NCBI RefSeq assembly: GCF_001419695.1
Contig: NZ_LIRG01000035.1
Span: 1 to 35,562, forward strand
DNA from: Streptomyces prasinopilosus
GTDB lineage: Bacteria > Actinomycetota > Actinomycetes > Streptomycetales > Streptomycetaceae
DNA length: 35,562 nucleotides
Reading direction: 5' to 3'
A model generated the notes under the pieces. The model saw only the letters and a list, made by a program, of their open reading frames with translations. It made no database searches and had not been told where the DNA came from. Position 1 is the stretch's first letter. Every line of letters starts with the position of its first letter. Positions 403 to 20,277 of this stretch are shown in pieces. A program made the translations under genes and the position numbers.

Positions 403-438
403 TTTCGCGGCGCAGTGACGATCAATGCGGGGGGCTTC

Positions 439-1704
439 ATGGATCGAAGAGCTGAAGGATGCGCGACGTCCGCGTCGCACGAATGTCATGTGCTGGTCAT
501 TCATCGGTGGCGGGCGGAGTACGTCGACTACGCGGCCGTGCTCGACCACACCGTCCACCGCGTCAGCTACGTCACGACCGAGGTCGGTCTCACCCGGGTG
601 CCCGAACAGGCCGCCGGTGTCGAGGTCGTCCCGAAGACCGACGACCTCGCGGCGGTGCGCCGGGCGGTCTCGGCGCTCGCGGAGCGGCACGGGCCGCCCC
701 GGCGGATCATCGCGCTGAAGGAGGACGACCTGCTGACGGCGGCGACGCTCCGGGCCGAGTGGGGATGCGAGGGAACACAGCCCGACCAGGCGTTACGGTT
801 CCTCGACAAGTCGGTGATGGCCGAGACGGTCGCCGCCCGCGGGCTCGCGGTCCCGCCCTTCGCGGCGGTCGACAGCGCCGACGACGTCCGCGCCTTCGCG
901 GCGGAGCACGGCTGGCCCGTCATCGTCAAGCCGCGGATCGGCAGCTCCAGCGACGGCGTCGCGCGACTGGACGGGCCGGCCGACGCGGAGCGGATCGACT
1001 TCGCCGGGCGGCCGATGCTTGCCCAGGTCTACAACCCGCACCCGATCTACCACGTGGACGGCGTGTATCTGGACAAGCGCCTCGTCGCCTTCCGCGCCTC
1101 CCGGTACGTCAACACCTGCCTCGACTTCCGAACCGGCGACTACCTGGGATCGGTCGAGGAGGACGACCCGGTGACCGTGTCGGCGATCGGCGCCGCCGCG
1201 GAGCGCTTCGTCGGCGCCTTCGACACCGACCCGCTGGTGTTCCACCTCGAGCTGTTCGTCGCGCCGGCGGCCGCCACGGGCGAGCCGGAGTGCACCTTCC
1301 TCGAGGTCGGAGCCCGGGTGGGGGGAAGTGAGATCCCGTTCCTGTGGCGGGAGGTCCACGGGTACGACCTGATGGCGGCGGCGCTCAAGCTGCAGCTGGG
1401 CGAGCCCCTGGACCCGCCGGTGCTGAAGAACGACGACATCGCCGGCTGGCTGCTGGTGCCGTCGCCGGCGCGGCGGCCCTGCCGCATCACCGAGGTCACC
1501 CCGCTGAGCGGGCGGGTCCCCGGCCTGTACGCCGAGGCACTGCTGGGCCGGGGCGAAGTGCTGCCGCCGGCCGACGCCTACTACGAGCACGTGGGCGGCC
1601 GGTTCCGGTTCCGGGGCGCCACGAGCCGGACGGTCGAGGAAGCCATCCAGGCCGCCGCCGCCGACTTCCGTATCAGCGCCGAGCCGGTGGGAGACAGCGC
1701 ATGA
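439..1704 (+). CDS. ATP-grasp carboxylate-amine ligase A
   Basis: A 421-residue ATP-grasp enzyme. The family activates a carboxylate as an acyl phosphate using ATP and Mg2+ and joins it to an amine. The nucleotide-binding segment VIVKPRIGSSSDG has its lysine near residue 164. The metal-binding acidic segment FHLELF then EVGARVGG starts near residue 289. I chose ATG 439 because it has a GGGG-rich ribosome site 7-12 nt upstream and a fitting promoter; a GTG at 415 would add eight residues. The gene stops in an ATGA overlap with a second, divergent ATP-grasp gene. Codon 119 (793-795) is TTA, rare in Streptomyces and suggesting bldA dependence. Substrates are unknown. The likely role is amide bond formation in a pathway without an NRPS, but a biotin-carboxylase or purine-type reaction cannot be excluded from sequence alone. 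Confidence 0.85.
   Translation: MDRRAEGCATSASHECHVLVIHRWRAEYVDYAAVLDHTVHRVSYVTTEVGLTRVPEQAAGVEVVPKTDDLAAVRRAVSALAERHGPPRRIIALKEDDLLTAATLRAEWGCEGTQPDQALRFLDKSVMAETVAARGLAVPPFAAVDSADDVRAFAAEHGWPVIVKPRIGSSSDGVARLDGPADAERIDFAGRPMLAQVYNPHPIYHVDGVYLDKRLVAFRASRYVNTCLDFRTGDYLGSVEEDDPVTVSAIGAAAERFVGAFDTDPLVFHLELFVAPAAATGEPECTFLEVGARVGGSEIPFLWREVHGYDLMAAALKLQLGEPLDPPVLKNDDIAGWLLVPSPARRPCRITEVTPLSGRVPGLYAEALLGRGEVLPPADAYYEHVGGRFRFRGATSRTVEEAIQAAAADFRISAEPVGDSA
793..795 (+). promoter_or_regulatory. In-frame TTA leucine codon (bldA checkpoint)
   Basis: The frame from 439 reads CAG GCG TTA CGG TTC here (Q-A-L-R-F). TTA is decoded by the bldA tRNA in Streptomyces, which becomes abundant late in growth. Being in the first gene of a translationally coupled operon, it could gate the whole pathway. 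Confidence 0.8.
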
Positions 1705-2957
1705 AGCACGTCGTACTGGTCGATCCGTACGCGCCGGCCCGGGGACTGCCGCCCGCGTTCCTGGAGGCGGGCTACCCCTGCGTCCGCCTGCAGAGCACCG
1801 CGGAGGTCCCGGAGGTGTACCGGGGTCCGCTGGACCTCGGCGGCTACGTCACGAACGTGGTCCACCGGGGCGACGTCGAGGACACCATCCGGCAACTGGC
1901 CGCGTACCAGCCGGTGGCCGTCATCACCGGCAGCGAACTGGGCGTCGAACTGGCCGACGAGATCAGCGAGTCGATGGGCCTGGACACCAACGGCGCCAAG
2001 CTGAGCGCCACCAGGCGGGACAAGTTCCAGATGATCGAGCAGGTGGCGGCGGCCGGGCTGCGGACGCCGCGTCAGGTGCACGTGACCGACGAGGCGGAAC
2101 TGCGCGCGTGGCACCGCGAGATCGGTGGCCGGATCGTGGTCAAGCCGCTGCGCAGCGCCGCCGGCGACGGCGTCGCCTTCTGCGACGATCCCGACCGGTC
2201 CGCGGCGGCCCTCGCGGAGATCATGGGGCGGGAGAACATCTTCTCGCTGCCGAACCTCGGCGTGGTGGCCCAGGAGTACCTCCTGGGCGCGGAATACATC
2301 GTCAACACGGTGAGCCGCGCCGGGCGCCACCATGTCACCGACATCTGGGGATCCGGCCGGCTGTCCGCGAACGGGATCGCGGACCTGCTGGTGGAAAGCG
2401 TCCTGCTGGAGCCGGAGGCACCCGGTCTCGACGCGTTGACCGTCTACGCGTTCGCCGTTCTGGACGCCCTCGGCATTCGATTCGGCCCGGCCCACCTGGA
2501 GATCAAAATGACTCCGGACGGACCCTGCCTCGTCGAGGTCGGCGCGCGCATCTCGGGCGGCGAACTGCCCTACTTCGCGGCCGAGGCGATCGGCGCGTCA
2601 CAGCTCGACTGGACCGTCGACTGCTACGTCCGGCCGGAACGCTTCGATGCGCGCTGCGGCACGCCGTACCGGCCCAAGCACCACTTCGCCTGGTCGGCGC
2701 TGGTCTCGCCGTACCACGGGACGCTCGTCTCCTACCGGGGGCTCGAACAGATCGAGGCCCTGCCGAGCTTCCGCGCGGCCCGGATCCTCGTCGCGCCGGG
2801 GAAGGCGATACGGCCCACCGTGAACGATCTGACCTACCCGCTCACCGTCACGCTGCACCACGAGTCCGATGGCGTTCTGCAGCGGGATCTGAACACGATC
2901 AGATATCTCGACGGTGCCGGCTTCTACGACGTGGACCACTACCAGCAGAACGGCTGA
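1701..2957 (+). CDS. ATP-grasp carboxylate-amine ligase B
   Basis: A 418-residue second ATP-grasp enzyme. It starts at the ATG inside the ATGA that ends ligase A, so the two are translationally coupled. The N-terminal pre-ATP-grasp domain begins MKHVVLVDPYAPARG. The ATP-binding segment VVKPLRSAAGDGVAF has its lysine near residue 148. The segment AHLEIKMT followed by EVGARISGGE (Glu near 279) provides the metal ligands. It shares the fold and the EVGAR motif with ligase A but little other sequence, so this is not a recent duplication. Tandem ATP-grasps usually catalyse successive couplings or form one complex. With no adenylation or condensation domains nearby, they are the best candidates for the amide-forming steps. 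The substrate cannot be read from the sequence. Confidence 0.85.
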   Translation: MKHVVLVDPYAPARGLPPAFLEAGYPCVRLQSTAEVPEVYRGPLDLGGYVTNVVHRGDVEDTIRQLAAYQPVAVITGSELGVELADEISESMGLDTNGAKLSATRRDKFQMIEQVAAAGLRTPRQVHVTDEAELRAWHREIGGRIVVKPLRSAAGDGVAFCDDPDRSAAALAEIMGRENIFSLPNLGVVAQEYLLGAEYIVNTVSRAGRHHVTDIWGSGRLSANGIADLLVESVLLEPEAPGLDALTVYAFAVLDALGIRFGPAHLEIKMTPDGPCLVEVGARISGGELPYFAAEAIGASQLDWTVDCYVRPERFDARCGTPYRPKHHFAWSALVSPYHGTLVSYRGLEQIEALPSFRAARILVAPGKAIRPTVNDLTYPLTVTLHHESDGVLQRDLNTIRYLDGAGFYDVDHYQQNG

Positions 2958-2960
2958 CAC

Positions 2961-3653
2961 ATGCGCATTGTCGACCTGACCCACGGGTTCTCCGAGGGCA
3001 TGCCTTCGTATCCGGCGGACTGGTTCCCGCCCTTCTCGTTCGACCGGGCGATGACGCCGCAGACGGATCCGTACGGCACGAACCGCACGTTCTCCACGCT
3101 GCACATCTTTCCGCACAACGGCACCCACATCGAATACAAGCTGCACTTCTATCCCGGGACCGAGGGCATCGGGGAAGTGCCGCTCGAGACCCTGATCGGC
3201 CGTACGTGCGTGGCGGACCTGTCCCACAAGGGCGACCTGGAGCCGGTGACGGCCGAGGACCTGGACAAGGCCGTGGGCGACCTGTGGACGCCCGGGGACC
3301 GCCTCCTCGTCCGCACCGACTACCTGCGCGACAACTGGGGCGCCGCGGACTACTGGGACCGCCCGCCGTACATGACGCCGTCGGCCGCGCAGTGGGCCAT
3401 CGACAACGGCGCCGTCCTCGTCGGATTCGACTGCCTGACCGAGCGTCCCGGTGATGCCGAATCGCCGGTGCACCACGCGCTCCTGGCGGCCGGCATCCCG
3501 ATCCTGGAGTACGTGGCCAACCTGCACGAGCTGCGGCAGCCGGTGGTCCAGCTGTTCGCCCTGCCGATCAAGGTGGCCGACGTGGAGGCCGCGCCAGCCC
3601 GGGTGGTGGCCCTGGAGCACGCCGACGCGGCCGCCGCCACGGGGGGTCGCTGA
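2961..3653 (+). CDS. Cyclase-family metal-dependent hydrolase (kynurenine-formamidase type)
   Basis: A 230-residue member of the cyclase family, which includes bacterial kynurenine formamidase and polyketide or isatin hydrolases. The family metal-site signature HxGTHxDxPxH appears as HNGTHIEYKLH at residues 52-62: His52, His56 and His62 are kept, but the Asp is Glu58 and the Pro is Lys60. The length matches the family. The gene follows ligase B by 3 nt and precedes the TrpE gene by 1 nt, so it belongs to the operon. The family hydrolyses amides or cyclic amides, often next to an aniline nitrogen, which suits an anthranilate-derived substrate. That substrate assignment is inference; a ring-closing role is also possible. 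Confidence 0.8.
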   Translation: MRIVDLTHGFSEGMPSYPADWFPPFSFDRAMTPQTDPYGTNRTFSTLHIFPHNGTHIEYKLHFYPGTEGIGEVPLETLIGRTCVADLSHKGDLEPVTAEDLDKAVGDLWTPGDRLLVRTDYLRDNWGAADYWDRPPYMTPSAAQWAIDNGAVLVGFDCLTERPGDAESPVHHALLAAGIPILEYVANLHELRQPVVQLFALPIKVADVEAAPARVVALEHADAAAATGGR

Positions 3654-3654
3654 C

Positions 3655-5046
3655 ATGACCACCACCGTGGAGTCGCCCGCATTCCTGCGCAGCGGGTTAC
3701 GCCCCGGCGACGTCGTGCACCGGCACGAGTCGCGCGGACCCGACGTCGACGCGGTCGTCGCGGCGGCCGCACTGCGCGGCTCGGACCGGATCATGCTCAG
3801 CTGCCGGGCCGCGGAGACCGGACCGGTCGTGCTGATCGCGGTCGGCGAGCTGGCCGTCGCCCGCCGGGTGGGGCACCGGCGCGACCCGTCCGCGCCCGCA
3901 CCGGTCACGGCGGCGATCGACTTCCTGGACGGCCTGGAGTTCGCGTCCGGCGCGGGACCCGACGAACGCAGCTGGTACGGATGCATCGGGTACGACGCCG
4001 TCACCGACTTCGAGCGGCTGTCGCTGCAGTCGACGGGCCTGCCCACCTACGACCTGTTCCTGCCGGAGGTGCTGGTCCGGTTCGACCGGACCGGGACCAC
4101 GGTGGTCGGCCGGGGCGCCACGGCGCCGGCGGCCCGCGGCGCCGCCGAGCGCGTCGAGCGGGTGCTCCGGGGAGCCGGGGAGTTCGCGCAGACGCCGACC
4201 CGGGCCGGCGCGGGCACCTTCGGACACGGGGTGGACGAGTACCTGGAGGCCGTGCGCAGGGCCAAGGAGTACATCCTGGCCGGCGACATCTTCCAGGTCG
4301 TGCTGTCCACCCGGTACTCGGCACCCGCCGAGGCGGACGGCCTGACGGTGTACCGGCGGTTGGCGGAGTTCAACCGCTCGCCCTACCACTTCTACTACCG
4401 CAGCACGGACTTCGAGGTCGTCGGTGCGTCGCCGGAACCGTGCGTCACCCTCACCGACCGTGACGTTCTCATCCGGCCGCTGGCCGGCACGCGCCCCCGG
4501 GGCGCCGACCGCGCCGCGGACCTCATGGCCGAGCAGGACCTCCTCTCGTCGGAGAAGGAGCTGGCCGAGCACCGGATGCTCGTCGACCTGGCCCGCAACG
4601 ACCTCGGGCGGGTCTGCGCGCCGAGCACCGTCCGGGTGCCCCGCCTGATGGAGGTCGAGCGGTACTCCCATGTCATGCATATGACATCGGATGTGCGCGG
4701 GCGGCTCCGCCCCGGCTGCCGCACCGACGACCTCGTCCGCGCCAGTTTCCCGGCCGGCACCATGACCGGTGCTCCGAAGGTCCGCGCGATCGAGATCATC
4801 GACGAACTCGAGCCGGTCGGACGCGGCCTGTACTCGGGCGCGGTCGGCTCGTTCGGCGTGGGCCACGCCGACCTGTACCTGACCATCCGTGCGCTCGTCG
4901 TGCACGACGGCGGGATACACCTGCAGGCGGGCGGCGGGATCGTCTACGACTCCGATCCCCTCGCCGAACGCGAGGAGTGCCTGGCGAAGCTCCGGGCCGC
5001 CGCCCGCGCCGCCGCCGTCAGCCTCGGAGCGGGGGACCAAGCGTGA
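3655..5046 (+). CDS. trpE: Anthranilate synthase component I (chorismate-binding)
   Basis: A 463-residue chorismate-utilising enzyme expected to convert chorismate and ammonia to anthranilate. The N-terminal TrpE/PabB regulatory-type domain spans about 1-190 and the catalytic domain about 205-455. Visible motifs are PLAGTRPRG (from 275), LARNDLGRV, AGTMTGAPKVRAIEII (from 367) and AGGGIVYDSDP. An Ala at the PxAGT position is typical of anthranilate synthases, while PabB enzymes usually have Lys there. The ATG is 1 nt after the cyclase stop, and the stop overlaps the glutaminase start as GTGA. Codon 15 (3697-3699) is TTA. The setting, with its own DAHP synthase, indicates a pathway-dedicated copy rather than the primary trp gene. 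Stopping at aminodeoxyisochorismate is possible, but no isochorismatase is present to use it. Confidence 0.92.
   Translation: MTTTVESPAFLRSGLRPGDVVHRHESRGPDVDAVVAAAALRGSDRIMLSCRAAETGPVVLIAVGELAVARRVGHRRDPSAPAPVTAAIDFLDGLEFASGAGPDERSWYGCIGYDAVTDFERLSLQSTGLPTYDLFLPEVLVRFDRTGTTVVGRGATAPAARGAAERVERVLRGAGEFAQTPTRAGAGTFGHGVDEYLEAVRRAKEYILAGDIFQVVLSTRYSAPAEADGLTVYRRLAEFNRSPYHFYYRSTDFEVVGASPEPCVTLTDRDVLIRPLAGTRPRGADRAADLMAEQDLLSSEKELAEHRMLVDLARNDLGRVCAPSTVRVPRLMEVERYSHVMHMTSDVRGRLRPGCRTDDLVRASFPAGTMTGAPKVRAIEIIDELEPVGRGLYSGAVGSFGVGHADLYLTIRALVVHDGGIHLQAGGGIVYDSDPLAEREECLAKLRAAARAAAVSLGAGDQA
3697..3699 (+). promoter_or_regulatory. Second in-frame TTA leucine codon
   Basis: Codon 15 of the anthranilate synthase gene reads TTA (R-S-G-L-R). 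With the TTA at 793 this makes two bldA-dependent codons in the upstream part of the operon. I found no in-frame TTA in any other gene of the window. Confidence 0.8.
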
Positions 5047-5624
5047 TCGTCATCATCGACAACTACGACTCCTTCGTCTACAACCTCGCGCAGTACAGCG
5101 GCCAACTCGGGCACGAGTGCCGCGTCGTGCGGAACAACGCGGCGACCGTGGACGAGATCGCCTCGCTGAACCCCGCCCTGATCCTCATCTCGCCCGGCCC
5201 GGGCGGGCCGCGGGACGCGGGCGTCTCGCTGGAACTCGTCCGCGACCTCGGCCGGCGTGTGCCGATCCTCGGCGTGTGCCTCGGGCACCAGTGCATCGCG
5301 GAGGCGTTCGGCGCGCGCGTGGTCCGGGCGGCGCTGCCGATGCACGGCAAGCTCAGCCCCGTCTTCCACCAGGGAACCGGCGCCTTCACCGGGCTGCCGA
5401 GCCCGCTGGACGTGACGCGGTACCACTCGCTGACCGTCGACCCGGCGTCCCTGCCGGAGGAACTCGTCGTGACGGCCTGGACGGACGCCGGCGAGGTCAT
5501 GGGACTGCGGCACCGCGACCTGCCGATCGAGGGCGTGCAGTTCCACCCGGAATCCCTGTTCACCGAGAAGGGCCTCGACATGGTGGCGAACGCGCTGAAG
5601 GCAGCCGAGCGGGTGACGGCATGA
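5043..5624 (+). CDS. trpG: Anthranilate synthase component II (glutamine amidotransferase)
   Basis: A 193-residue class I glutamine amidotransferase supplying ammonia to the TrpE subunit encoded immediately upstream. The catalytic triad is visible: Cys79 in GVCLGHQ, and His168 and Glu170 in FHPES. The oxyanion-strand motif SPGPGGP is near residue 50. The start is the GTG of a GTGA overlap, and the protein begins MIVIIDNYDSF as is standard for the family, so an upstream ATG at 4977 is rejected. The stop overlaps the next start as ATGA. A PabA role cannot be excluded by sequence, but the TrpE partner makes anthranilate synthase the better call. Confidence 0.92.
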   Translation: MIVIIDNYDSFVYNLAQYSGQLGHECRVVRNNAATVDEIASLNPALILISPGPGGPRDAGVSLELVRDLGRRVPILGVCLGHQCIAEAFGARVVRAALPMHGKLSPVFHQGTGAFTGLPSPLDVTRYHSLTVDPASLPEELVVTAWTDAGEVMGLRHRDLPIEGVQFHPESLFTEKGLDMVANALKAAERVTA

Positions 5625-6676
5625 CGGGCTACGGAGACAAGGACATGGCCACGCACCTCCAGGACATCCTCCGGTGGCACTTCGGCCCCGGGACCGGATC
5701 GCCGTTCTGGCTGAAGCGGAAGGACAGCCTCGGCTTCGACCCCCTACGCGACGTCGTCGAGTTCGCCGATCTGCGGAAGTTCCCCGACCTGAGCGACGAA
5801 CTGCGCACGGTCCCGGTCGACGACCTGAAGCCGGCCGGCTCGGCCGACAGCCCGTTCGAGGTGTACGAGTCGGGCGGCACGCTCGGCGTGCCCAAGCGCG
5901 TCGTCGAGCACCGGTCCCGGCTGGAGGGCGTGGACTGGGTCGAGACCGTGCTGCCCGCGTTCGGCGGCGGCGGCCACTGGCTGCACGTCGGGCCGACGGG
6001 ACCGCACATCGTCGGCCGCTCCGTGCGCCGGCTGGCACACCTGCGCCGCTCCATGTTCTTCACCGTGGACTTCGACCCGCGGTGGGTGAAGCTGCTGATC
6101 CGGACCGATCGGCGGCCCCTGGCCGACGAGTACGTCCAGCACGTCCTCGACCAGGTCGAGACCATCGCCCGGTCGCAGGACATACGGGTCCTGTTCATCA
6201 CGCCGCCCGTGCTGGAGGCGCTGTGCGCGCGCCCGAAGCTCTACGGCATGCTGGCCGACCGCGTCACCGGCATCATCTGGAGCGGCACCAGCATCAGCGG
6301 CACCTCCCTGCGGCTGCTCCAAACCGAGTTCTTCCCGCACGCCGAGGTGCGCGGGATCTACGGCAACAGCCTCATGGGCATCGCGCCGCAGCGGTCTCCC
6401 GAGCCCGGCGACACGCATCCGTGCGTCTTCCGGACCTTCCAGCCCCGGTCGGTCGTCGAGGTGGTGGACCCGGACACGGGCGAGCGGGTGGCGCCCGGCG
6501 AGCGGGGCCGCGTCCTCGTGCACCTGCTGACGAGGGATCTGTTCCTGCCCAACGTGCGGGAGCGCGACACCGCGGTACGGATCGTCCCGGGCGGGCCGGG
6601 CGACGGCGACGACCTCGCCGACGTGCAGCCCTTCCGCCCGGCGTCCGGTGCGAAGGTGATCGAGGGCGTGTACTAG
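5621..6676 (+). CDS. Adenylate-forming enzyme, LuxE-like / short acyl-CoA-ligase-like
   Basis: A 351-residue protein of the ANL-type adenylating superfamily. The phosphate-binding motif is YESGGTLGVPK, beginning at residue 82. A central IYGNSLMG segment resembles the adenine-binding motif, followed by a VVDPDTGERVAPGERGRVLVH stretch typical of phenylacetate-CoA-ligase-like proteins. At 351 residues it lacks most of the mobile C-terminal domain of standard CoA ligases and matches the size of LuxE acyl-protein synthetase. It sits directly before a LuxC-like reductase with no gap, the same gene pair as in fatty-acid reductase complexes. I infer that it activates an aromatic acid, plausibly anthranilate or a derivative, as an acyl adenylate. 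Transfer to CoA or to the ACP of this operon is an alternative. Confidence 0.7.
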   Translation: MTGYGDKDMATHLQDILRWHFGPGTGSPFWLKRKDSLGFDPLRDVVEFADLRKFPDLSDELRTVPVDDLKPAGSADSPFEVYESGGTLGVPKRVVEHRSRLEGVDWVETVLPAFGGGGHWLHVGPTGPHIVGRSVRRLAHLRRSMFFTVDFDPRWVKLLIRTDRRPLADEYVQHVLDQVETIARSQDIRVLFITPPVLEALCARPKLYGMLADRVTGIIWSGTSISGTSLRLLQTEFFPHAEVRGIYGNSLMGIAPQRSPEPGDTHPCVFRTFQPRSVVEVVDPDTGERVAPGERGRVLVHLLTRDLFLPNVRERDTAVRIVPGGPGDGDDLADVQPFRPASGAKVIEGVY

Positions 6677-8011
6677 ATGAGCCCTTCGATCCTGCAGCCG
6701 CTGGTGAGCGGCGAGACGTTCGCCTGCGACGAGACCGCCGACCTGCCCGGCGTCCACGGCGTGCCGGTGGCCCGTGTCGGGGTGTCTCCGGCCCTCCTGC
6801 TCCAGCTGGCTCTGCGCCGGCTGCGGGGCGCGGCCGTCCCGCAGGCGGTGTTCAGCCGGGCCGGTGAGCTCTTCGCCGAGGCCGAGCTGGCCGGCGAGCC
6901 GGCCGACGAGTACCGCCGCCGTGTGGTGGCCGCCACGGGCCTGCCGCACCGGGTCGTGAGCGACGGTCTGCGCAGCGTCCGCGACGGGCTGGCCCGGCTG
7001 GAGGAGAGCAACGCGCGGCAGCTGCCGGCGCCGGCGGCCCGCGTCCGGTGGGTGCCCCGTGGCCGGACCCTCGGGATCGTGACCCCGTCGAACCACGTCG
7101 ACCCGCATCTGACCTGGGCCCGGGCGCTGTCGCTCGGACTCGGCGTCATCGTGCGGCCGGGGACGCGCGACCCGTTCACACCGTTCCGGCTCGCGGCCGC
7201 CCTCCTGGCGGCCGGGCTGCCGCCCCAGTGCCTCTCCGTCCTCCCCGGTGCCCACGAACTGGGCGAGCGGCTCCTCGCCGCGACCGAACTGGGCATCGTG
7301 TACGGCGGGCCGGCCGCCGTGAGCCGATGGGCGGACCACCCCCGCGTGCTGGCCCGGGGGCCCGGCCGCAGCGCCGTGCTGCTGGACCGGCCGTTGTCAC
7401 CGGACGTCGTCGACGCGCTGGCCCGCTCCGTCGCCGCCGACGCGGGCGTCCGCTGCACCAACACGTCCGTGATCCGCACCAGCGGGGACCCGGCGGAGGT
7501 GGCCGATGTCCTGGCGGCCCGCCTGGACGCCGCGCCGAACCTTCCGGCGGACCATCCCGACGCCGTGCTGCCGACGGTCTCCGCGGAACAGGCCGAGCGG
7601 TTGCGTCACGCGGTCGCGGGCCTGGAACAGGCGGGCCTGCGGCGCCACTCGGCCGACGCCGGCCCGGTCCCGTTGCCGGACGGCTCGTACGCCGCGCGCC
7701 CGGTCGTGCTCAGCACGTCCGACCCCCGGCACCCGTCCCTCGGCACCGAGCTGCCGTTCCCCTTCGCCGTCGTCACGCGGTGGTCGGCCGCCGACGGCCT
7801 GGAGCCGTTCGGCCCGACGCTCGCGCTGTCGGTCCTCAGCGACGACCCCGGCCTTCCCCCCGCCGCCCTGGCGGAGCCGCGGATCCGGCGCGTCGTGGTC
7901 GGCGGGGCGGCCCCCTGGACGAGCGGGCCGGAACTCCCGCACGACGGCAGTCTGACCGGCTTTCTGCTGGAACCCAAGGCATTCCTCCCGGACAAGGAGC
8001 CGACCGGATGA
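6677..8011 (+). CDS. LuxC-like acyl reductase (aldehyde dehydrogenase superfamily)
   Basis: A 444-residue ALDH-superfamily protein resembling the LuxC acyl-CoA reductase group. A cofactor-side segment LGIVTPSNHVDPHLTW lies near residue 135, and the probable catalytic cysteine is Cys260 in GVRCTNTSVIR, which corresponds to the ALDH active-site loop. Such enzymes accept an activated acyl group as a thioester on the cysteine and reduce it with NAD(P)H to an aldehyde. It starts directly after the stop of the LuxE-like gene and ends in an ATGA overlap with an SDR gene. Acid activation, reduction to aldehyde and a further redox step is the natural reading of the trio. The overall sequence is divergent, so the substrate and the direction of reaction are inferred. 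Confidence 0.7.
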   Translation: MSPSILQPLVSGETFACDETADLPGVHGVPVARVGVSPALLLQLALRRLRGAAVPQAVFSRAGELFAEAELAGEPADEYRRRVVAATGLPHRVVSDGLRSVRDGLARLEESNARQLPAPAARVRWVPRGRTLGIVTPSNHVDPHLTWARALSLGLGVIVRPGTRDPFTPFRLAAALLAAGLPPQCLSVLPGAHELGERLLAATELGIVYGGPAAVSRWADHPRVLARGPGRSAVLLDRPLSPDVVDALARSVAADAGVRCTNTSVIRTSGDPAEVADVLAARLDAAPNLPADHPDAVLPTVSAEQAERLRHAVAGLEQAGLRRHSADAGPVPLPDGSYAARPVVLSTSDPRHPSLGTELPFPFAVVTRWSAADGLEPFGPTLALSVLSDDPGLPPAALAEPRIRRVVVGGAAPWTSGPELPHDGSLTGFLLEPKAFLPDKEPTG

Positions 8012-8700
8012 AGCACGTGGTGGTCACCGGAGCGTCCGGAGACATCGGCACCGCTGTCGTGGCCCGCGCCCTGGCCTCGGGAGCGGAGGTCCTCGCCCAG
8101 TTCCACACGCGGCCCCCGGCCCTTTCCCACCCGTCGCTGTCGTCGGTCCAGGTGGACCTGACCCGCGACGACGGTCCCGCCGGACTCGTCGCGGCGCTGC
8201 CGTGGACGAGCGTGGACCTGCTGGTCAACTGCATCGGCGGGGCGAGGCCGACGGCATACGCCGACCTGGACACCGCGCAGTGGCGGCACTGCATGCAGCT
8301 GAACGTCGAGGTGCCGTTCGCGGTGACGCGGGAGCTGCTGGGGCCGCTGTCCGCGGCGGCCGGCGCGGTCGTGAACCTGTCGAGCGTCGCGGCGTTCACC
8401 GGCGGGGCGTTCGGTCCGCACTACGCCGCCGCCAAGGCGGCCGTGGTCGGCCTGACCCGGTCGGCCGCCCGTGAACTCGGCGACCGGGGCATCCGGGTCA
8501 ACTGCGTCGCACCGGGGCCGGTCGCGTCGTCCATGACCGACTCGCTCCCCGACGACGTCCTCACCGGCCTCCTGGCCGCCACCGCGTTGCGGCGCGTGGT
8601 GGCGCCGGAGGAGGTGGCCGACACGGTGCTCGGGATCGCCGCCGCCACCGGCGTCACCGGACAGACGCTGGTCGTCGACGGCGGCCGGTTCCTGCACTGA
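8008..8700 (+). CDS. Short-chain dehydrogenase/reductase
   Basis: A 230-residue classical SDR with a Rossmann fold. The cofactor motif GASGDIG is at residues 8-14, NCIGG corresponds to the NNAG motif, the active-site serine lies in NLSSVAAF, and the catalytic pair is YAAAK (Tyr139, Lys143). PGPVASSM follows, as in FabG-like enzymes. It is coupled by ATGA to the LuxC-like gene. It may reduce the aldehyde, a keto-acyl intermediate from the KAS III/ACP branch, or oxidise a cyclohexadiene. There is no sequence basis to choose between these. Confidence 0.88.
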   Translation: MKHVVVTGASGDIGTAVVARALASGAEVLAQFHTRPPALSHPSLSSVQVDLTRDDGPAGLVAALPWTSVDLLVNCIGGARPTAYADLDTAQWRHCMQLNVEVPFAVTRELLGPLSAAAGAVVNLSSVAAFTGGAFGPHYAAAKAAVVGLTRSAARELGDRGIRVNCVAPGPVASSMTDSLPDDVLTGLLAATALRRVVAPEEVADTVLGIAAATGVTGQTLVVDGGRFLH

Positions 8701-8747
8701 GCTTGTTCGCACACACATCAGGTGTCCCACCTCTGGAAGGAGTCCCG

Positions 8748-9794
8748 GTGCTGCTTGTCTGCAGGGCTGTAGATGAGGAAGCGGTGCGCGAGCGCATACA
8801 CGCCCGCGTCCCGGCCGCGCACGGCACGACCATGTGCCGGATCGGCGATCAGCTGCTGGTGTACGTGCCGGGCGACCGGCTCGCGCCGGCCGACGCGCTG
8901 CACGAGTCCGGCCTGGTGCAGCGGGTGGTGACCGACCACTCCGACGCGCCGTTGACCGACCGGGCGGCCGCTCCTCTCGGGTCCATCGTCGGCCTCGGCG
9001 GGTCGGCGACGGTCGGCGGTGTCGACTTCGCGCTGATCGCGGGGCCCTGCGCGGTCGAGAGCCACGAGCAGATGTCCGCCTCGGTGGAGATGGCGAAGGC
9101 CGGCGGCGCCGTCGCGCTGCGCGGTGGCGCCTACAAGCCGCGCAGCTCCCCCTACAGCTTCCAGGGGCTGGGGGACGAGGGCCTGCGGATCATGTCCGAG
9201 GTCAGGGCGGAGTCCGGCCTGCCCGTCGTGACCGAGGTCGTCGACGCGGAGACGGTCGACCTCGTCGCCGAGCACGCCGACGTGCTCCAGATCGGCACCC
9301 GCAACGCACAGAACTTCACCCTCCTCAGGGCCGTCGGCCGGGCCGGGCGGCCGGTACTGCTCAAGCGCGGATTCGGGTGCACCGTGAGCGAGTGGCTGCA
9401 GGCGGCCGAGTACGTGCTCGCCGCCGGAAACCCCGACGTCGTGCTGTGCGAGCGGGGGATCCGGAGCTTCGAGCCGTCGACGCGGTTCACGCTGGACCTG
9501 AGCGCGGTGGCGGTGGTCAAGCACATGAGCCACCTCCCCGTCATCGTCGACCCCAGCCACGGGGTCGGCCACCGCCACCTGGTCAAGCCGCTCGCGCTCG
9601 CCGCCGCGGCGGTCGGAGCCGACGGGCTGCTCCTCGACATCCACCCCGACCCGGCGTCCGCGCTCTGCGACGGCGCTCAGGCGCTCGACCGGGAGCGCTG
9701 GTTCGACCTCGCCGGCGCACTGCGCGACGTCCTCACGAGCCTCGGGCGGGGCCTGACGCTCCGTGAGCCGGAGCCGGCGGGACACGTCGCATGA
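8748..9794 (+). CDS. 3-deoxy-7-phosphoheptulonate (DAHP) synthase, type I beta
   Basis: A 348-residue DAHP synthase, condensing phosphoenolpyruvate and erythrose 4-phosphate as the first step of the shikimate pathway. It has an N-terminal ferredoxin-like regulatory domain (about 1-75, MLLVCRAVDEEAVRERI) and then the barrel. Motifs are IAGPCAVES, GGAYKPRSSPYSFQG, IGTRNAQNF, LLKRGF and IVDPSHGVGHR. Primary-metabolism DAHP synthases in Streptomyces are normally type II, so this type I beta copy is likely pathway-specific and raises chorismate supply. GTG 8748 is chosen because GGAAGGAG lies 5 nt upstream and the N-terminus matches the family; an in-frame TTG at 8703 is less likely. It follows a 47-nt gap, one of the few real gaps in the operon. 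Confidence 0.92.
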   Translation: MLLVCRAVDEEAVRERIHARVPAAHGTTMCRIGDQLLVYVPGDRLAPADALHESGLVQRVVTDHSDAPLTDRAAAPLGSIVGLGGSATVGGVDFALIAGPCAVESHEQMSASVEMAKAGGAVALRGGAYKPRSSPYSFQGLGDEGLRIMSEVRAESGLPVVTEVVDAETVDLVAEHADVLQIGTRNAQNFTLLRAVGRAGRPVLLKRGFGCTVSEWLQAAEYVLAAGNPDVVLCERGIRSFEPSTRFTLDLSAVAVVKHMSHLPVIVDPSHGVGHRHLVKPLALAAAAVGADGLLLDIHPDPASALCDGAQALDRERWFDLAGALRDVLTSLGRGLTLREPEPAGHVA

Positions 9795-10882
9795 CCCGGC
9801 GTCCGGACGTCGCCGTGATCGGCGGCGGAGTCATCGGCCTCGCGGTGGCGTGGCGCTGCGCCCAGCGCGGGCTCGACGTACACGTCTTCCACGACGAGAT
9901 CCCCGGCACGGCCTCCGCGGTCGCGCCCGGCATGCTGGCACCGGTGAGCGAGGCGGACTTCCCCGATCCGGCCCTGCTGGCCTTCGCCCACGAGGCGCGT
10001 CGCGCATGGCCCGCGTTCGCCGCGGAACTCGCCGCCGCGAGCGGGATCGACCTCGGGTACGCGACCGACGGGCTGCTCCTCGTCGCCCACTCCGCCGAGG
10101 ACCGTGCGCGGCTGGCCAGGATGTACGCCTTCCGGGAGGGCTACGACGTCCCGTGCGAGAGCCTGGACGCCGACGGACTGAGGGCCCGGGAGCCGCTGCT
10201 CGCGCCCGAGTGCCGGGGCGGCGGTTTCGCCACCGAGGACCACCACGTCGACGCGCAGCGGGTCCGGACCGCGTTGCGCGCCGCCGGACGGGCGCTCGGG
10301 GTCCGCTACGTCGACCGGCGCGTCCGGTCGCTCGACGAGGTCTGCGCGGGCTCGGTCCTCGTCGCCGCCGGGGCGTGGTCGCCCGAGCTGCACGAGTGGC
10401 CGGTCACGCCGGTCCGCGGCCAGGTGGTGCTGCTGCGGGATCCGTCCAAGGGCCCCGGACTCCGGCACGGCATCCGCGGAGTGGTGCGGGGAGGGCCCGT
10501 CTACCTCGCCGGCCGGGACGGCCACGAGACGGTCGTCGCCGCCACCCTGGACCACGCGGGCTTCGACGTGCGGCCCTCGGCGCGGGCCACCGAGTCGCTG
10601 CTGCGCAAAGCGGTCGCGCTCGTGCCGGCGCTGGCCGGGCACGAGGTGGCGGCGACACGGGTGGGCCTGCGGCCCGACACCCCCGACCACCTGCCCGTCA
10701 TGGGTCCCGTCCCCGGCCGCTCCGGCGCCTACGTCTGCACCGGGCACTACCGGCACGGCTTCCTGCTCGCGCCGGTCGCGGCGGACCTGATGACCGCGCT
10801 GATGCTCGGTGGCACCGACGGGATCCCGGCGGCATTCGCACCTCAACGGTTCCGATCAACGAAGGAAAGCACGTCGCGATGA
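9791..10882 (+). CDS. FAD-dependent amine oxidase, glycine-oxidase (ThiO) like
   Basis: A 363-residue flavoprotein of the DAO/glycine oxidase family, which oxidises a primary or secondary amine to an imine and releases H2O2. The N-terminal dinucleotide-binding motif GGGVIG is at residues 11-16. VAPGMLAP and a C-terminal GLRPDTPDHLPVMGPVPG then YVCTGHYRHGFLLAP are characteristic of ThiO. Thiamine genes (thiS, thiG, thiE) are absent, and it overlaps DAHP synthase and the exporter by ATGA, so a biosynthetic role is more likely than thiamine synthesis. It could oxidise a glycyl unit attached by an ATP-grasp ligase, or supply glyoxylate or an imine. Both options are inference. Confidence 0.82.
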   Translation: MTRRPDVAVIGGGVIGLAVAWRCAQRGLDVHVFHDEIPGTASAVAPGMLAPVSEADFPDPALLAFAHEARRAWPAFAAELAAASGIDLGYATDGLLLVAHSAEDRARLARMYAFREGYDVPCESLDADGLRAREPLLAPECRGGGFATEDHHVDAQRVRTALRAAGRALGVRYVDRRVRSLDEVCAGSVLVAAGAWSPELHEWPVTPVRGQVVLLRDPSKGPGLRHGIRGVVRGGPVYLAGRDGHETVVAATLDHAGFDVRPSARATESLLRKAVALVPALAGHEVAATRVGLRPDTPDHLPVMGPVPGRSGAYVCTGHYRHGFLLAPVAADLMTALMLGGTDGIPAAFAPQRFRSTKESTSR

Positions 10883-12273
10883 CCACACCCACCGTGCGAA
10901 CGAGCCCGCCGACGAAGCGCGGGCCGCTGACCGGATGGCTCGACCCGGCACGTCTGCTGAACGTCGCCTGGCCGGTCTACATCGAGCTCATGTCGGGTGT
11001 CATCGCCAGCATCATCACGGTCGTGTGGATCGCCCGGCTCGGAGGGCCCGCGCTCGCCGCCGTGACCATGGCCGCCACGCTCGAGAACGTGCTCATGAGC
11101 GTCGTCCTGGCCGTCAGCGGGGGCACGACGATCGTGCTGTCGCGCGCCGTCGGCGCGAGCGAGTACGGGCGCCTGCGCCCGGTGCTGCGGGCCGCGTTCC
11201 GCATCACCCTCGTCGTCACCGCGGTGATCTGCGTGGTGCTCTTCGTGCTGAGGGAGCCCCTGGCGAAGGTCATCCTCGGCTCGGACGAGGCGTCGGCGGT
11301 CCGGCTGTCGGTCGACTACCTCACCGTCGCGGTGCCGGGCATAGCGGTGTTCTACGGCCAGCACCTGGTCGACAGCACGTTCAAGGCCAAGGGGGACACG
11401 CGCACGCCGATGCGCATGGCCATCCTGTCGAACCTGATCCTCGTCGTGGCCGACCCCGTCCTCATCTTCGGGTGGCTGGGCGCCCCCCGGCTCGGCGTCA
11501 CCGGGGCGGCCCTGGCCCTGGTCGCGTCGCGGGCCGTCACGCTGGCGGTGACCTGGTGGCTCTACCGGCGGTCCCCGCTGGTGCGGGACATGACCGCCGC
11601 CCCGGAGGCGCCGAAGACCCCGGGACCCGGCCCGGTCCGCGAGATCCTCGCCGCCGGCCTGCCGCTGGGAGTGGACTTCCTGGTGCGGATGGCCGCCGGC
11701 ATGCTGATCGTCGGAGTGGTGGCCCGTTTCGGAACGGACGAGGTCGCCGCGTACGGGACCGTCACGCGGACGCTGCTGTTCCTCACCATGGCGGCGTACG
11801 CGATGCGCCAGGCCGCCACCATCATCGCGGCCCAGGCGAACGGCGCCGACGACGCCGTGCTGCTCGCGGCGAGCCGCTCCTCGTCGGTGCGTCTCGGCAT
11901 CGCCTGGTCCGTGCTCGGCGGACTGGCGGTGCTGCTCCTCGGCGGCCTCGCGGTGGACGCGGTCACGGGCGAGGCGGCCATCCGTTCCGCGGCCTACGGC
12001 CAGATCCCGTGGCTCTCGGTCTACATCGCCCTGCTGCTCTGCAACGTCACCCTGAGCGGCATCTTCCTCGGCGGCGGGAACGGCAAGGCGCTGGCCACCT
12101 CCACCACGGTCGGCGCGGCCCTGCAGCTCTGCCTGGCACCGCTGCTCGTCCTCACCCCCCTGGGCCTGACGGGGGCGTGGATCGCCATGATCATCAACGC
12201 CGGGACGCAGACGACGGTCCTCCTCGTACTGGCGGCCCGGCAGACCAACGAGACCAAGGAAGTTACGGCATGA
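10879..12273 (+). CDS. MATE-family multidrug/natural-product exporter
   Basis: A 464-residue membrane protein of the MATE family, which exports cationic or polar compounds using an ion gradient. About twelve hydrophobic segments are visible in two similar halves. The first starts at LLNVAWPVYIELMSGVIAS (from about residue 32) and the second at ILAAGLPLGVDFLVRM. A KAKGDTRTPM loop lies between them, as is typical. It is coupled by ATGA to the genes on both sides, so it is made with the biosynthetic enzymes and is the most likely exporter and self-resistance determinant for the product. Confidence 0.9.
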   Translation: MTTPTVRTSPPTKRGPLTGWLDPARLLNVAWPVYIELMSGVIASIITVVWIARLGGPALAAVTMAATLENVLMSVVLAVSGGTTIVLSRAVGASEYGRLRPVLRAAFRITLVVTAVICVVLFVLREPLAKVILGSDEASAVRLSVDYLTVAVPGIAVFYGQHLVDSTFKAKGDTRTPMRMAILSNLILVVADPVLIFGWLGAPRLGVTGAALALVASRAVTLAVTWWLYRRSPLVRDMTAAPEAPKTPGPGPVREILAAGLPLGVDFLVRMAAGMLIVGVVARFGTDEVAAYGTVTRTLLFLTMAAYAMRQAATIIAAQANGADDAVLLAASRSSSVRLGIAWSVLGGLAVLLLGGLAVDAVTGEAAIRSAAYGQIPWLSVYIALLLCNVTLSGIFLGGGNGKALATSTTVGAALQLCLAPLLVLTPLGLTGAWIAMIINAGTQTTVLLVLAARQTNETKEVTA

Positions 12274-13283
12274 ACGCGCCCGTGGCACTCGGCATCGCGT
12301 CCCTCGCCCACGTACTGGGTGAGCCCTGCGACGTCGCCGAAACCGCCCCCTCCTACGTCGACGACCCCGACCGGGTGATCCGCTGGGGGTACCGCACCTT
12401 CCACCGGGCCGCACCGGGCGTCGGCCAGACCCGCATGGCTGCGGACGCCGCCCGGCAGGCCCTCGACGCCGCCGGTCTGCGGGCGTCGGACATCGACTAC
12501 CTGGTCGTGGCCGACAGCGGAGTCCCGGAGTACCTCAACTGGGACGCCTCCGCGGCGGTCGCCCGCGAACTCGAACTGGGTACGACACCGACCCTGCTCG
12601 CCACGCAGGGGTGCGCGTCCGCGGTGACCGCACTCCAGCAGATCGCCGGGCTCATGGCGGTCCGGGACGACATCCGGCGCGTCCTGCTGGTCGCGGTCCA
12701 CCGGGTCAGCGAGGCGCACATCAACCGGATGCGCAACAACACCTGCCTCGGCAGCGACGGGGCCGCCGCCGCGGTGGTCCAGCGCGGACACGGCCGGCTG
12801 CGGTGGCTGGCGACCGACCAGATCGTGGACCCGCGCTACGTGGACTTCTTCCGGGTCGAGTACGGCGGCAGCGCCGCTCCGGTCGGCGAGAACCTCGAAG
12901 TGGACCAGATGGCCCTGGTCCACCGGCACTTCCGTCGTGAACCCGAGCAGCTCGCCCAGTTCGTCAAGGACGTCGACCACCAGGTGGCCGCCGTCGTGGA
13001 GCGCGCCTGCGAGCGGGCCGGCGTGCCGTCGTCTCAGATCCGGCGCCTGATCTACCTGAACGACAACCAGCACTCGCTGGCCGGGGTCGCCAAGGCGACC
13101 GGGATCCCGCTGGAGAGGACGAACGCGGAGCTCGCCGCCGAACTGAGCCACGTCGGCTGCGCCGACCAGCTCATCTGCCTGAGCGTCTACGACTCCCGGG
13201 ACGAGCTGGCCCCCGGCGACCTCGTGGCGCTCGCCGGCCTGTCCGGGGGCATGCAGTGGTTCTGCACCCTCGTGCGCGTCTGA
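12270..13283 (+). CDS. Ketoacyl-ACP synthase III-like protein with altered active site
   Basis: A 337-residue thiolase-fold protein of the FabH/KAS III group. The nucleophile is present as Cys115 in TQGCASAVTAL. In FabH the other catalytic residues are His in HQAN and Asn in GNTS. Here the matching stretches read LNDNQHS (263-269) and SHVGCA (293-298), so Leu263 and Gly296 occupy those positions. Nearby His268 and His294 might substitute. Such changes occur in KAS III relatives that transfer acyl groups or use unusual substrates. With the ACP encoded next door it may load or extend an acyl unit, for example joining an aryl thioester to a malonyl unit as PqsD does, or transfer an acyl group to a heteroatom. 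It is coupled by ATGA to the exporter gene. Confidence 0.85.
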   Translation: MNAPVALGIASLAHVLGEPCDVAETAPSYVDDPDRVIRWGYRTFHRAAPGVGQTRMAADAARQALDAAGLRASDIDYLVVADSGVPEYLNWDASAAVARELELGTTPTLLATQGCASAVTALQQIAGLMAVRDDIRRVLLVAVHRVSEAHINRMRNNTCLGSDGAAAAVVQRGHGRLRWLATDQIVDPRYVDFFRVEYGGSAAPVGENLEVDQMALVHRHFRREPEQLAQFVKDVDHQVAAVVERACERAGVPSSQIRRLIYLNDNQHSLAGVAKATGIPLERTNAELAAELSHVGCADQLICLSVYDSRDELAPGDLVALAGLSGGMQWFCTLVRV

Positions 13284-13296
13284 GAAGGGGACGGAC

Positions 13297-14628
13297 ATGA
13301 CGACGAACACTGCCCCCGGCCGCACCGACGACCTGTCGTGGGACGACGGCCGGACCGCGGTACTGCGGCTCCCGAACGAGCTCCCGCCCGGCCGGGGCGT
13401 CCCGGCGGTCGTGCTGCTGCACCCGTTCGGAGCCTGGGACCGGGACGCCTTCCTTCCCGCCGAGGCGTCCGGGAACGGCCCGGTCCGCCTGTTCGACGAC
13501 CTGGGTGCCGCCCTGGTCCGGGCCGGACTCGCCGCGGCCGCGTTCGACACGCGCTTCCTGAGCGAGGACCACCACGGCGGCGCGGGCTCACCCCGGTTCA
13601 CGTTCACCGGCCTCGTCGACGACGCGGTCCGGGTCGCCGAACGGACACGGGCCCACCCCGACGTGGACGGCGACCGCGTCCTGCTCCTGGGCGTCTCGAT
13701 GGGCGCGGAGGTGGCGGTGGCCGCGGCGGAGCGCCTCGGGGGCGAGAGCCACCTGGCGGTCGTCGCCCCCAGCGCCGAGGCGCGTCCCGTGTTCCAGCGG
13801 TGGATGGGCCTGGACCGGCGTCTGGAATGGCTGAGCACGGGCGGATTCACCGGCGCGGACGGCAGCGTCGACCTCGCCGCGGCGAAGGCCGACGAGACGG
13901 GGCGCAGCGGCTGGTGGGAGGACTTCGACCTGGTCGACCGCTTCGGCCCGACTGTCGACCTCGAACTGCTGCGCGCCGAACTCGCGCTGGAGTACGACAC
14001 CTGGGAGCGGCAGGCGCTGGCGCACGGCGACGAGTCGGCGCCCGCCTCGTTCTGGCGCGACTGGTTCGCGCAGCCCGCTCCGCACCGCCGACTGGCCGGG
14101 CTCACCGGCCGGATCACGATCCACGTGGGCGCCGAGGACTGGACGACGCCGCCCCGCCAGGCCCACCTGCTGCACCGCGCGGCGCTCGCGCACGGCCTGC
14201 GGTCCGAGCTGACGGTCCATCCGCGGCTCGGGCACCTGATGTCGCCCCGCTCGGCCGGGGGCCGGCGCACCTACGGACCGTTCGACCCCGACTTCCTGCG
14301 GGCCCTCGTCGCCTCGGCCGACGCGGTGCTCCGCCCCGACCCGTCCCTGCGAACCGACCACCCGACGAAAGGCCGCCCCATGGAGAAGCTCACCCTCGAC
14401 GAGCTGATCGAGCTGCTCAACGAGTGCAACGACTACGAGAATCCGGTCGATCCGACGCCGGAGGTCCTCAACCTCACGTTCGACGCCCTCGGATACGACT
14501 CGCTGACGCTGCTCAACGCGATCTCGAAGCTGGAACGCCGGTACGGGATCGAGCTCCCCGAGTCCGTCACCTCCGACGCGAAGACACCGCGCGAGCTCCT
14601 CGCGGTCGTCGACAGCCGCCTGGCCTAG
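13297..14628 (+). CDS. Alpha/beta-hydrolase fused to acyl carrier protein
   Basis: A 443-residue ORF with two parts. Residues 1 to about 345 form an alpha/beta-hydrolase: VVLLHPFGAWD gives the oxyanion region, Ser134 in GVSMGAE is the nucleophile, and the late acid and base are probably Asp in GAEDWTTP and His in RLGHLMSP. Residues 362-443 form an acyl carrier protein with the phosphopantetheine serine at Ser402 in LGYDSLTLL. The hydrolase start has GAAGGGG upstream. Within the ORF, an ATG at 14380 is preceded by GAAAGG at a proper distance and would give an 82-residue ACP with its serine at position 41, the standard ACP layout. The locus may therefore make a fusion, a free ACP by internal initiation, or both. 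The hydrolase could release or edit the ACP-bound intermediate. Confidence 0.85.
   Translation: MTTNTAPGRTDDLSWDDGRTAVLRLPNELPPGRGVPAVVLLHPFGAWDRDAFLPAEASGNGPVRLFDDLGAALVRAGLAAAAFDTRFLSEDHHGGAGSPRFTFTGLVDDAVRVAERTRAHPDVDGDRVLLLGVSMGAEVAVAAAERLGGESHLAVVAPSAEARPVFQRWMGLDRRLEWLSTGGFTGADGSVDLAAAKADETGRSGWWEDFDLVDRFGPTVDLELLRAELALEYDTWERQALAHGDESAPASFWRDWFAQPAPHRRLAGLTGRITIHVGAEDWTTPPRQAHLLHRAALAHGLRSELTVHPRLGHLMSPRSAGGRRTYGPFDPDFLRALVASADAVLRPDPSLRTDHPTKGRPMEKLTLDELIELLNECNDYENPVDPTPEVLNLTFDALGYDSLTLLNAISKLERRYGIELPESVTSDAKTPRELLAVVDSRLA
14380..14628 (+). other. Possible internally initiated free-standing ACP
   Basis: This is a candidate internal translation start within the hydrolase-ACP ORF. 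ATG 14380 follows a GAAAGG ribosome site. The product would be 82 residues starting MEKLTLDELIELLNE, exactly the span of a discrete acyl carrier protein, with the pantetheine-bearing serine at residue 41. It is recorded separately because the upstream hydrolase reads through without a stop, so the sequence cannot decide between fusion and dual products. Confidence 0.45.
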
Positions 14629-14658
14629 CCCCGATCCGAAGAGCGGAGAACACACGAC

Positions 14659-16512: not shown

Positions 16513-16529
16513 CGGAGGACGTCAAGACC

Positions 16530-17591: not shown

Positions 17592-18127
17592 CCCGCACCG
17601 AAAGCGCCGACCGGGTGCGGCTGCCGGAACACCCGTCCAGTGAGTTCCGGCGGTCGGCCGGCCGGTTCCCCACCGGCGTGACCGTGCTGACCTGCGTCCG
17701 GGACGGGGAGGCGCACGGCATGACGGTGAACGCGTTCACCACCGTGTCGCTCGACCCGCTGCTGGTCCTGGCGGTGCTCGGGACCGGCTCCCGGACGGCC
17801 CGCCAGGTGCTGTCCGGCGACGGGTTCGCGGTGACCGTGCTGAGCTCCCTCCAGGAGCCGACGGCCCGGTCGTTCGCGGACCCGGTCCGGACCCGGGGCG
17901 GCGCCGCGTTCTCCACCGTCGCCCACGCGCCCGCCCCCCGCACCGGTTCGCCGGTGCTGCTCGGCGGGATCGCCTACTTCGACTGCCTGGTCGAGTCCAC
18001 CCATCCGGCCGGCGACCACACCATCCTCGTCGGCGCCGTGCAGACGTTCGGCATGCTGTCGGAGGAGCCGGCCCTGCTGTTCAGCCGAAGCCGCCTCGGT
18101 GCGGAACCGGATCCGCGGCTGCCATGA
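17588..18127 (+). CDS. Flavin reductase (FMN-binding split barrel)
   Basis: A 179-residue flavin reductase-like protein. FRRSAGRFPTGVTVLT near the N-terminus, then HGMTVNAFTTVSLDPLLVLAVL, is the family signature for flavin binding, and DHTILVGAVQTFG appears near the C-terminus. It uses NAD(P)H to reduce FMN, which diffuses to the partner monooxygenase. The GTGA overlap with the luciferase-like gene argues that they work as a pair. Starting at GTG 17588 gives the normal family length. Confidence 0.92.
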   Translation: MTRTESADRVRLPEHPSSEFRRSAGRFPTGVTVLTCVRDGEAHGMTVNAFTTVSLDPLLVLAVLGTGSRTARQVLSGDGFAVTVLSSLQEPTARSFADPVRTRGGAAFSTVAHAPAPRTGSPVLLGGIAYFDCLVESTHPAGDHTILVGAVQTFGMLSEEPALLFSRSRLGAEPDPRLP

Positions 18128-18143
18128 GGGGTTCGGAGTAGCT

Positions 18144-20231: not shown

Positions 20232-20263
20232 GACAGGACCTCGGTTTCGGAGGAGGTGCGCTT

Positions 20264-20277
20264 TGGGAGCGCTCCCA
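20264..20277. promoter_or_regulatory. CebR-type operator
   Basis: TGGGAGCGCTCCCA is a perfect 14-bp palindrome identical to the established CebR (cellobiose-responsive LacI-family repressor) box of Streptomyces. Degenerate copies follow at 20279-20292 (10 of 14 matches) and 20379-20392 (11 of 14). The perfect copy is placed to repress the GH6 gene. The others may affect the divergent LacI-family remnant. Confidence 0.9.

Follow-up and report, generated by a model that had tools for sequence, protein, structure and literature searches.

The window analysed here is a whole contig of Streptomyces prasinopilosus (NZ_LIRG01000035.1; 35,562 bases, within a fragmented 6.4 Mb genome that is 89% complete). 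It contains two adjacent genes whose products, judging by their sequences, probably form a two-protein aryl carboxylic acid reductase of the GriC/GriD (EhpF/EhpG) type, with anthranilate or 3-hydroxyanthranilate as the most likely acid. By analogy with EhpF and GriC, the first subunit (351 amino acids), a short EhpF-type AMP-binding protein, would activate an aminobenzoate with ATP. The acyl group would then move to Cys260 of the second subunit (444 amino acids), which is predicted to have an aldehyde dehydrogenase (ALDH) fold, and NAD(P)H would reduce the Cys260-bound acyl group to the aldehyde. Anthranilate or 3-hydroxyanthranilate would be supplied via the adjacent TrpE/TrpG and 3-deoxy-D-arabino-heptulosonate 7-phosphate (DAHP) synthase genes. 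A short-chain dehydrogenase/reductase (SDR) may reduce the aldehyde further, or it may act earlier.

A sequence-only reading of this DNA had described a LuxE-LuxC-like fatty acid reductase pair repurposed in an aromatic pathway. Its chemistry was broadly right: homology and gene context support a pair that activates an acid and reduces the acyl group, with an aromatic acid as the substrate. The LuxE/LuxC name did not stand, and the pair is a member of an already known kind of two-protein reductase. With the label corrected, the pair is linked to an aryl acid reductase that has already been described, and it would offer a biocatalyst for 2-aminobenzaldehydes if it does act on anthranilate.

The two subunits

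The gene arrangement was as previously described: a 351-residue adenylating protein is followed at zero gap by an ALDH-like protein with Cys260, and the pair sits between anthranilate-synthase-like genes and an SDR gene (Table 1). The stop codon of the TrpG-like gene overlaps the start codon of the first open reading frame (ORF; ATGA at 5621), the ATG of the second ORF comes directly after the stop codon of the first, and the ATG of the SDR gene (8008) overlaps the stop codon of the second. Gene order is kept in Streptomyces sp. cf386 (locus L042), where the two proteins are 91% and 88% identical to those in the window, and in Kitasatospora phosalacinea (L043), where they are 82% and 74% identical. 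Because the orthologues keep their order and because nucleotide differences from cf386 are concentrated at third codon positions (18/14/52 and 32/25/76 differences at positions 1/2/3 of the two ORFs), we consider both ORFs to be real genes.

Among solved structures, the 351-residue protein matches EhpF (PDB 3hgu/3l2k) over residues 9–351 (E = 1.5e-70). Its only match in Pfam is a weak one to the AMP-binding family (20.5 bits, versus a cut-off of 29.9); at E up to 1, this profile matches 19 of 22 family members. The LuxE profile (PF04443) matches none of these 22 at the same threshold, so the proposed kinship with LuxE was not borne out. LuxE carries its transfer cysteine in the last 20 residues, and just 1 of 80 EhpF homologues has a cysteine there. 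(The 80 are the best of 552 confirmed relatives in a scan of one genome per species, and counts out of 80 describe those loci.) An SGG(T/A/S)xGxPK loop is present in 77 of the 80 homologues, and all of them have a C-terminal EGVY.

The 444-residue protein matches Aldedh (PF00171) at 46.7 bits and LuxC (PF05893) at 15.1 bits, under the LuxC cut-off of 21 bits, so the LuxC label does not apply either. At E up to 1, Aldedh matches each of 20 family members, and LuxC matches 16 of them (best E = 2.3e-06); the EhpG/GriD-type protein of Streptomyces griseus NCTC 13033 (L061) is at the LuxC cut-off, with 21 bits. Since Aldedh outscores LuxC in the window protein and matches more of the 20 members, LuxC is, by these profile scores, a distant cousin of the 444-residue protein and not its family. 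An AlphaFold2 model built from a 59-row alignment has a mean pLDDT (predicted local distance difference test) of 95.7 and a pTM (predicted template modelling score) of 0.93. The solved folds listed for this model are aldehyde dehydrogenases (best Z = 37.3, 3.2 Å, 432 residues aligned). No LuxC structure was among the 50 fold matches listed, which does not rule LuxC out. (The rows of the alignment, selected by eye, are the window protein and homologues from 58 of those 80 loci; not used were the partial protein of L067, the overlong ones of L074 and L109, and a further 19.)

All 59 aligned sequences have Cys260 and Glu358, and 56 of them have Asn139. In a HMMER alignment to 3b4w, Cys260 aligns with the catalytic cysteine of an aldehyde dehydrogenase. 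Given the usual ALDH numbering and roles, we take Glu268 to be the general base; via the same alignment, this position is alanine in the window protein, and none of the 59 rows has glutamate. CoA-acylating methylmalonate-semialdehyde dehydrogenases are among the best matches, and they likewise lack glutamate there (alignment to 4e4g). Because the general-base glutamate is replaced, hydrolysis of a thioester should be disfavored, and the residue pattern seems to fit a protein that would hold an acyl thioester and reduce it rather than hydrolyze it.

Could the pair nevertheless be a true fatty acid reductase that has kept aliphatic acyl substrates? In the LuxE/LuxC system, too, one protein activates the acid and reduction takes place on a cysteine of an ALDH-like partner. 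This shared two-step logic, the LuxC matches in 16 of 20 members, and the S. griseus protein at the cut-off would all fit that idea. However, it seems inconsistent with the lack of LuxE matches, the rarity of a C-terminal cysteine, and the higher score for Aldedh. Also, we saw no fatty-acid context, and the neighboring genes and the EhpF tree (see below) indicate aromatic acids wherever the supplier is known. We consider a fatty acid reductase to be very improbable.

Across the relatives, the two genes stay together. An EhpG homologue lies near the EhpF homologue in all 80 loci (the one in L067 is partial, with 220 amino acids at the edge of the locus). In 68 of these loci, it starts between -11 and +98 bases from the EhpF stop codon on the same strand; 9 loci have it on the opposite strand, and the other 3 have it elsewhere on the same strand. 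An EhpG partner was present in 19 of the 21 loci of a smaller, earlier set. The two-protein unit is a common part that is found behind different suppliers of aromatic acids.

Alternatively, the first subunit might only load an aryl acid onto the carrier protein of the cluster (13297–14628), with the ALDH-like protein being an ordinary dehydrogenase. At one locus (L023), an EhpF-like gene does lie beside a type I polyketide synthase gene, without an ALDH partner. Against this reading, the pair is back to back in 68 of 80 relatives, the general base is lost, and GriC/GriD are a precedent for reduction. We think that carrier loading is improbable.

Known two-protein reductases

The pair from S. 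griseus is 52% and 46% identical to the window pair and shows the same Pfam pattern. It is followed by MelC1-, tyrosinase-, and major facilitator superfamily (MFS) genes, with genes of the 3-dehydroquinate (DHQ)-synthase-II and DeoC families on the other strand. The MelC1-like and MFS genes presumably fit a grixazone cluster. We identified the locus as the grixazone cluster, and its pair as GriC/GriD, by the content of the cluster and not by gene names in the record, because it has genes that agree with the aldolase (GriI), cyclising enzyme (GriH), and oxidase (GriF) described in the accessible text of PMC10179220. According to that text, GriC forms the acyl-AMP of 3-amino-4-hydroxybenzoate and GriD mediates its reduction to the aldehyde. 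GriC/GriD had already been reported to be a carboxylic acid reductase (see the references in the accessible parts of PMC10179220 and PMC11429834), so the earlier suggestion that the window pair represents a distinct route to aryl aldehydes must be dropped. As in the window, an AMP-binding subunit is followed by an ALDH subunit, and the substrate of GriC/GriD is an aminobenzoate. Unlike in the window, this acid is made by an aldolase and a DHQ-synthase-II-like enzyme, and no homologue of TrpE, TrpG, the window's PF04199 "cyclase", or the ATP-grasp proteins was found within 10 kb of the S. griseus pair.

EhpF and EhpG, from the D-alanylgriseoluteic acid operon of Pantoea (Enterobacter) agglomerans, are also homologous to the window pair (39% and about 26% identity), and the structure of EhpF has been solved. 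Reportedly, EhpF/EhpG carry out a carboxyl reduction. We found no statement of this in the accessible part of PMC3175449. The corresponding genes of Proteus mirabilis are labelled ehpF and ehpG in a table of PMC11278526 (accessible part). The Pantoea operon is a phenazine operon, with PhzA/B-, isochorismatase-, PhzE-type, and PhzF-family genes; we did not find the cyclase there, but like the window cluster it has a β-ketoacyl-acyl carrier protein synthase III (KAS III). The pair occurs in phenazine operons from Pantoea (L024), Burkholderia (L025), and an E. coli plasmid (L026).

Carboxylic acid reductases (CAR) of the Nocardia/Mycobacterium type also convert acids to aldehydes, using ATP and NADPH, but they are single proteins with adenylation, carrier, and reductase domains. 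The window has two proteins instead, with an ALDH fold and no carrier domain in the pair.

We did not recognise a similar cluster, 2-aminobenzaldehyde formation by such a pair, or the pair by name in the results of our literature searches (subscription papers were mostly outside their scope). A possible link to stravidin and amiclenomycin was dropped, as the accessible text of the stravidin paper (PMC13336041) gave no LuxE or LuxC and no support. We also noticed that at L023 (9956–19083) the EhpF-like gene comes directly before the type I polyketide synthase gene, with no ALDH partner found; its product may serve to load an aryl starter. That record carries the name "arylcarboxylate reductase", which is a lead only; the phrase was not found in the literature that we searched.

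Source of the acid and the putative cyclase

At the positions of Gln263 and His398 in E. coli TrpE, the TrpE-like protein likewise has Gln and His. It has Gln at the position of EntC Lys147 and, in the motif PLAGT, Ala where the compared 4-amino-4-deoxychorismate (ADC) synthases have Lys (the E. coli PabB that we used was a partial sequence). The latter two residues suggest a protein suited to adding ammonia at C2. His398 was rejected as a marker of anthranilate synthase versus 2-amino-2-deoxyisochorismate (ADIC) synthase, because PhzE and EntC have His there too. The host genome has three further TrpE homologues and no second match to the DAHP synthase of the cluster. The supply of acid by TrpE/TrpG and the DAHP synthase therefore looks dedicated to this cluster.

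Chorismate enzymes near the pair were classed by motif as anthranilate-synthase-like (AS-like), isochorismate-synthase-like (ICS-like), PhzE, or ADC synthase. In a tree of EhpF homologues with 90 rows (the window, the 80 loci, and 9 of 21 other loci), the window falls in a 13-row clade (support 100/99) with 5 AS-like, 7 ADC-synthase, and 1 unassigned rows. The PhzE rows are in one 32-row clade (100/100), and a ten-row clade (100/100) includes nine ICS-like loci from Actinomycetota; the ICS-like rows from Bacillota and Pseudomonadota fall outside it. GriC's 16-row clade joins the window clade with weaker support (95/75). So the tree of the adenylating subunit seems to follow the supplier of the acid largely, if not one to one. 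Because the window's clade has AS-like and ADC-synthase neighbors, the acid is likely to be an aminobenzoate, and the tree makes anthranilate a plausible substrate. Closely related pairs (about 60% identity in the first protein) lie beside a fused PabA-PabB ADC synthase in L021, L044–L046, L048, and L049, which points to reduction of 4-aminobenzoate in those loci. In L021, the pair is carried by a Streptomyces plasmid, which also has a DAHP synthase gene.

Several observations weigh against our proposal. The sequence of the TrpE-like protein fits an ADIC synthase (pyruvate stays) as well as an anthranilate synthase (pyruvate leaves), and this protein is under the cut-off for TIGR00564 (373 of 517.7). 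No chorismate enzyme was found in reach of the pair at 47 of the 80 loci. ADC-synthase rows occur in two clades of the tree, with L063, L078, and L079 in GriC's clade. And in the smaller first set, an EhpF-like gene without a partner was found in 2 of 21 loci (L023 and L039).

An alternative source of the acid involves the PF04199 "cyclase" that is encoded upstream of the TrpE-like protein. TrpE/TrpG might stop at ADIC, the cyclase might remove the pyruvate, and the SDR might oxidize the ring, as EntA does, so that the pair would reduce 3-hydroxyanthranilate or a dihydro acid. The cyclase does follow chorismate chemistry. It is present in 4 of 4 AS-like loci, 12 of 13 ICS-like loci, and 0 of 11 PhzE loci. 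Among the 12 ADC-synthase loci, only L039 has it, as a 32% match that covers part of the query. It was not found in the one unassigned locus (L098), and of the 57 loci with no chorismate enzyme in reach, only L070 has it, a locus that is truncated by the contig end and is sister to L071. Isochorismatase genes are distributed the other way round: all 11 PhzE loci and L098 have one, and none of the 17 AS-like or ICS-like loci does. Cyclase and isochorismatase genes were not found together around an EhpF/EhpG pair. (L028, L029, and L033 were left out of these counts as duplicates of L047, L051, and L120; L033 showed a PhzE gene beyond the stretch covered by L120.) Since the AS-like and ICS-like rows lie apart in the EhpF tree, the cyclase appears to be linked to chorismate chemistry and not to EhpF descent. 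However, the SDR is only distantly EntA-like (28–29% in the orthologues from L042 and L043), and the ICS-like loci L066, L067, L069–L071, L088, and L096 gave no SDR resembling that of the window. Also, we know of no PF04199 member that acts on isochorismate or ADIC. We view this route as possible but doubtful.

More generally, we speculate, with considerable doubt, that the cyclase takes the place of isochorismatase as an enolpyruvyl-removing enzyme of a new kind. Its substrate would be ADIC in the window and isochorismate in relatives that belong to Actinomycetota, Bacillota, and Pseudomonadota. Together with an SDR and the pair, it might form a portable module that converts chorismate to aryl (or dihydroaryl) aldehydes with an ortho-amino or ortho-hydroxy group, for use in dipeptide-like antibiotics.

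Cyclase genes were seen in the window (2961–3653) and in L022, L027, L042, L043, L047, L065, L066, L069–L073, L084–L086, L088, and L096. The relatives that were matched by a motif search have HNGTHIE, as in the window, or HNGTHVE; this search gave no match in L022, L027, L039, L065, L085, and L086. Aligned relatives in PDB read HTGTHID or HTGTHVD.

The surrounding cluster

The pair is part of a gene cluster of antibiotic type (Table 1). Fifteen genes (415–17591) recur in Streptomyces sp. cf386 and Kitasatospora phosalacinea, and the TauE gene and the intervening DNA are conserved too. The conserved cluster predicts a family of products, of which we found no description in the literature searched. 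The KAS III, the hydrolase with a carrier domain, the asparagine-synthase-like enzyme, and the two ATP-grasp proteins suggest that the reduced ring may undergo acylation and peptide-like ligation.

Table 1. Predicted genes of the cluster, with positions in the window.
Feature	Position	Strand	Evidence
ATP-grasp protein A	415..1704	+	PF02786, 26 bits; conserved in L042/L043
ATP-grasp ligase B, dapdiamide-synthase-like	1701..2957	+	PF13535; NF005543 above cut-off; DdaF model 206 bits, below cut-off
PF04199 "cyclase" (kynurenine formamidase / isatin hydrolase superfamily), motif HNGTHIE	2961..3653	+	profile match, motif
TrpE-like chorismate enzyme, Gln at nucleophile position	3655..5046	+	PF00425, 289 bits; alignment with E. 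coli TrpE, EntC, partial PabB
TrpG-like glutamine amidotransferase	5043..5624	+	PF00117, 198 bits; TIGR00566 above cut-off
EhpF/GriC-type adenylating subunit (putative), 351 aa	5621..6676	+	EhpF structure, E = 1.5e-70; 52% identity to S. griseus L061 (GriC) protein
EhpG/GriD-type ALDH-fold acyl reductase subunit (putative), 444 aa, Cys260	6677..8011	+	PF00171, 46.7 bits; pLDDT 95.7; 46% identity to S. griseus L061 (GriD) protein
SDR oxidoreductase	8008..8700	+	PF13561/PF00106
Type I DAHP synthase	8748..9794 (start may be 8703)	+	PF00793; only homologue found in its 89% complete genome
ThiO-like FAD amino acid oxidase	9791..10882	+	PF01266; TIGR02352 above cut-off
MATE-type exporter	10879..12273	+	43% identity to annotated MATE transporter in L022
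KAS III-like enzyme	12270..13283	+	nearest ChlB3 among solved structures, CerJ lower in list
Alpha/beta hydrolase with C-terminal carrier-protein domain	13297..14628	+	PF00550; PF12146 under cut-off
Asparagine-synthase-like amidotransferase	14659..16512	+	PF00733, 329 bits
Luciferase-like flavin monooxygenase	16509..17591	+	PF00296; 92% and 85% in L125/L126
Flavin reductase, probable monooxygenase partner	17588..18127	+	PF01613, 117 bits
TauE/SafE-type exporter	18099..18893	+	PF01925; 92% and 73% in L125/L126

The phenazine operons of Burkholderia and Pantoea that contain the pair also encode a KAS III (43% and 30% identity, respectively). In the window (12270–14628), in Paenibacillus (L084, 1547–3659), and in Burkholderia (L025, 13857–20031), the pair has a KAS III gene together with carrier or hydrolase genes nearby, a recurrence that suggests acyl transfer onto the reduced product.

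The flavin reductase gene that comes after the luciferase-like monooxygenase (16509–18127 together) was hidden inside a longer frame in the simple list of ORFs. Outside the cluster, at 19266–24422, are ordinary glycoside hydrolases: members of glycoside hydrolase families GH6 and GH43 and an alpha-galactosidase with a ricin-type lectin domain.

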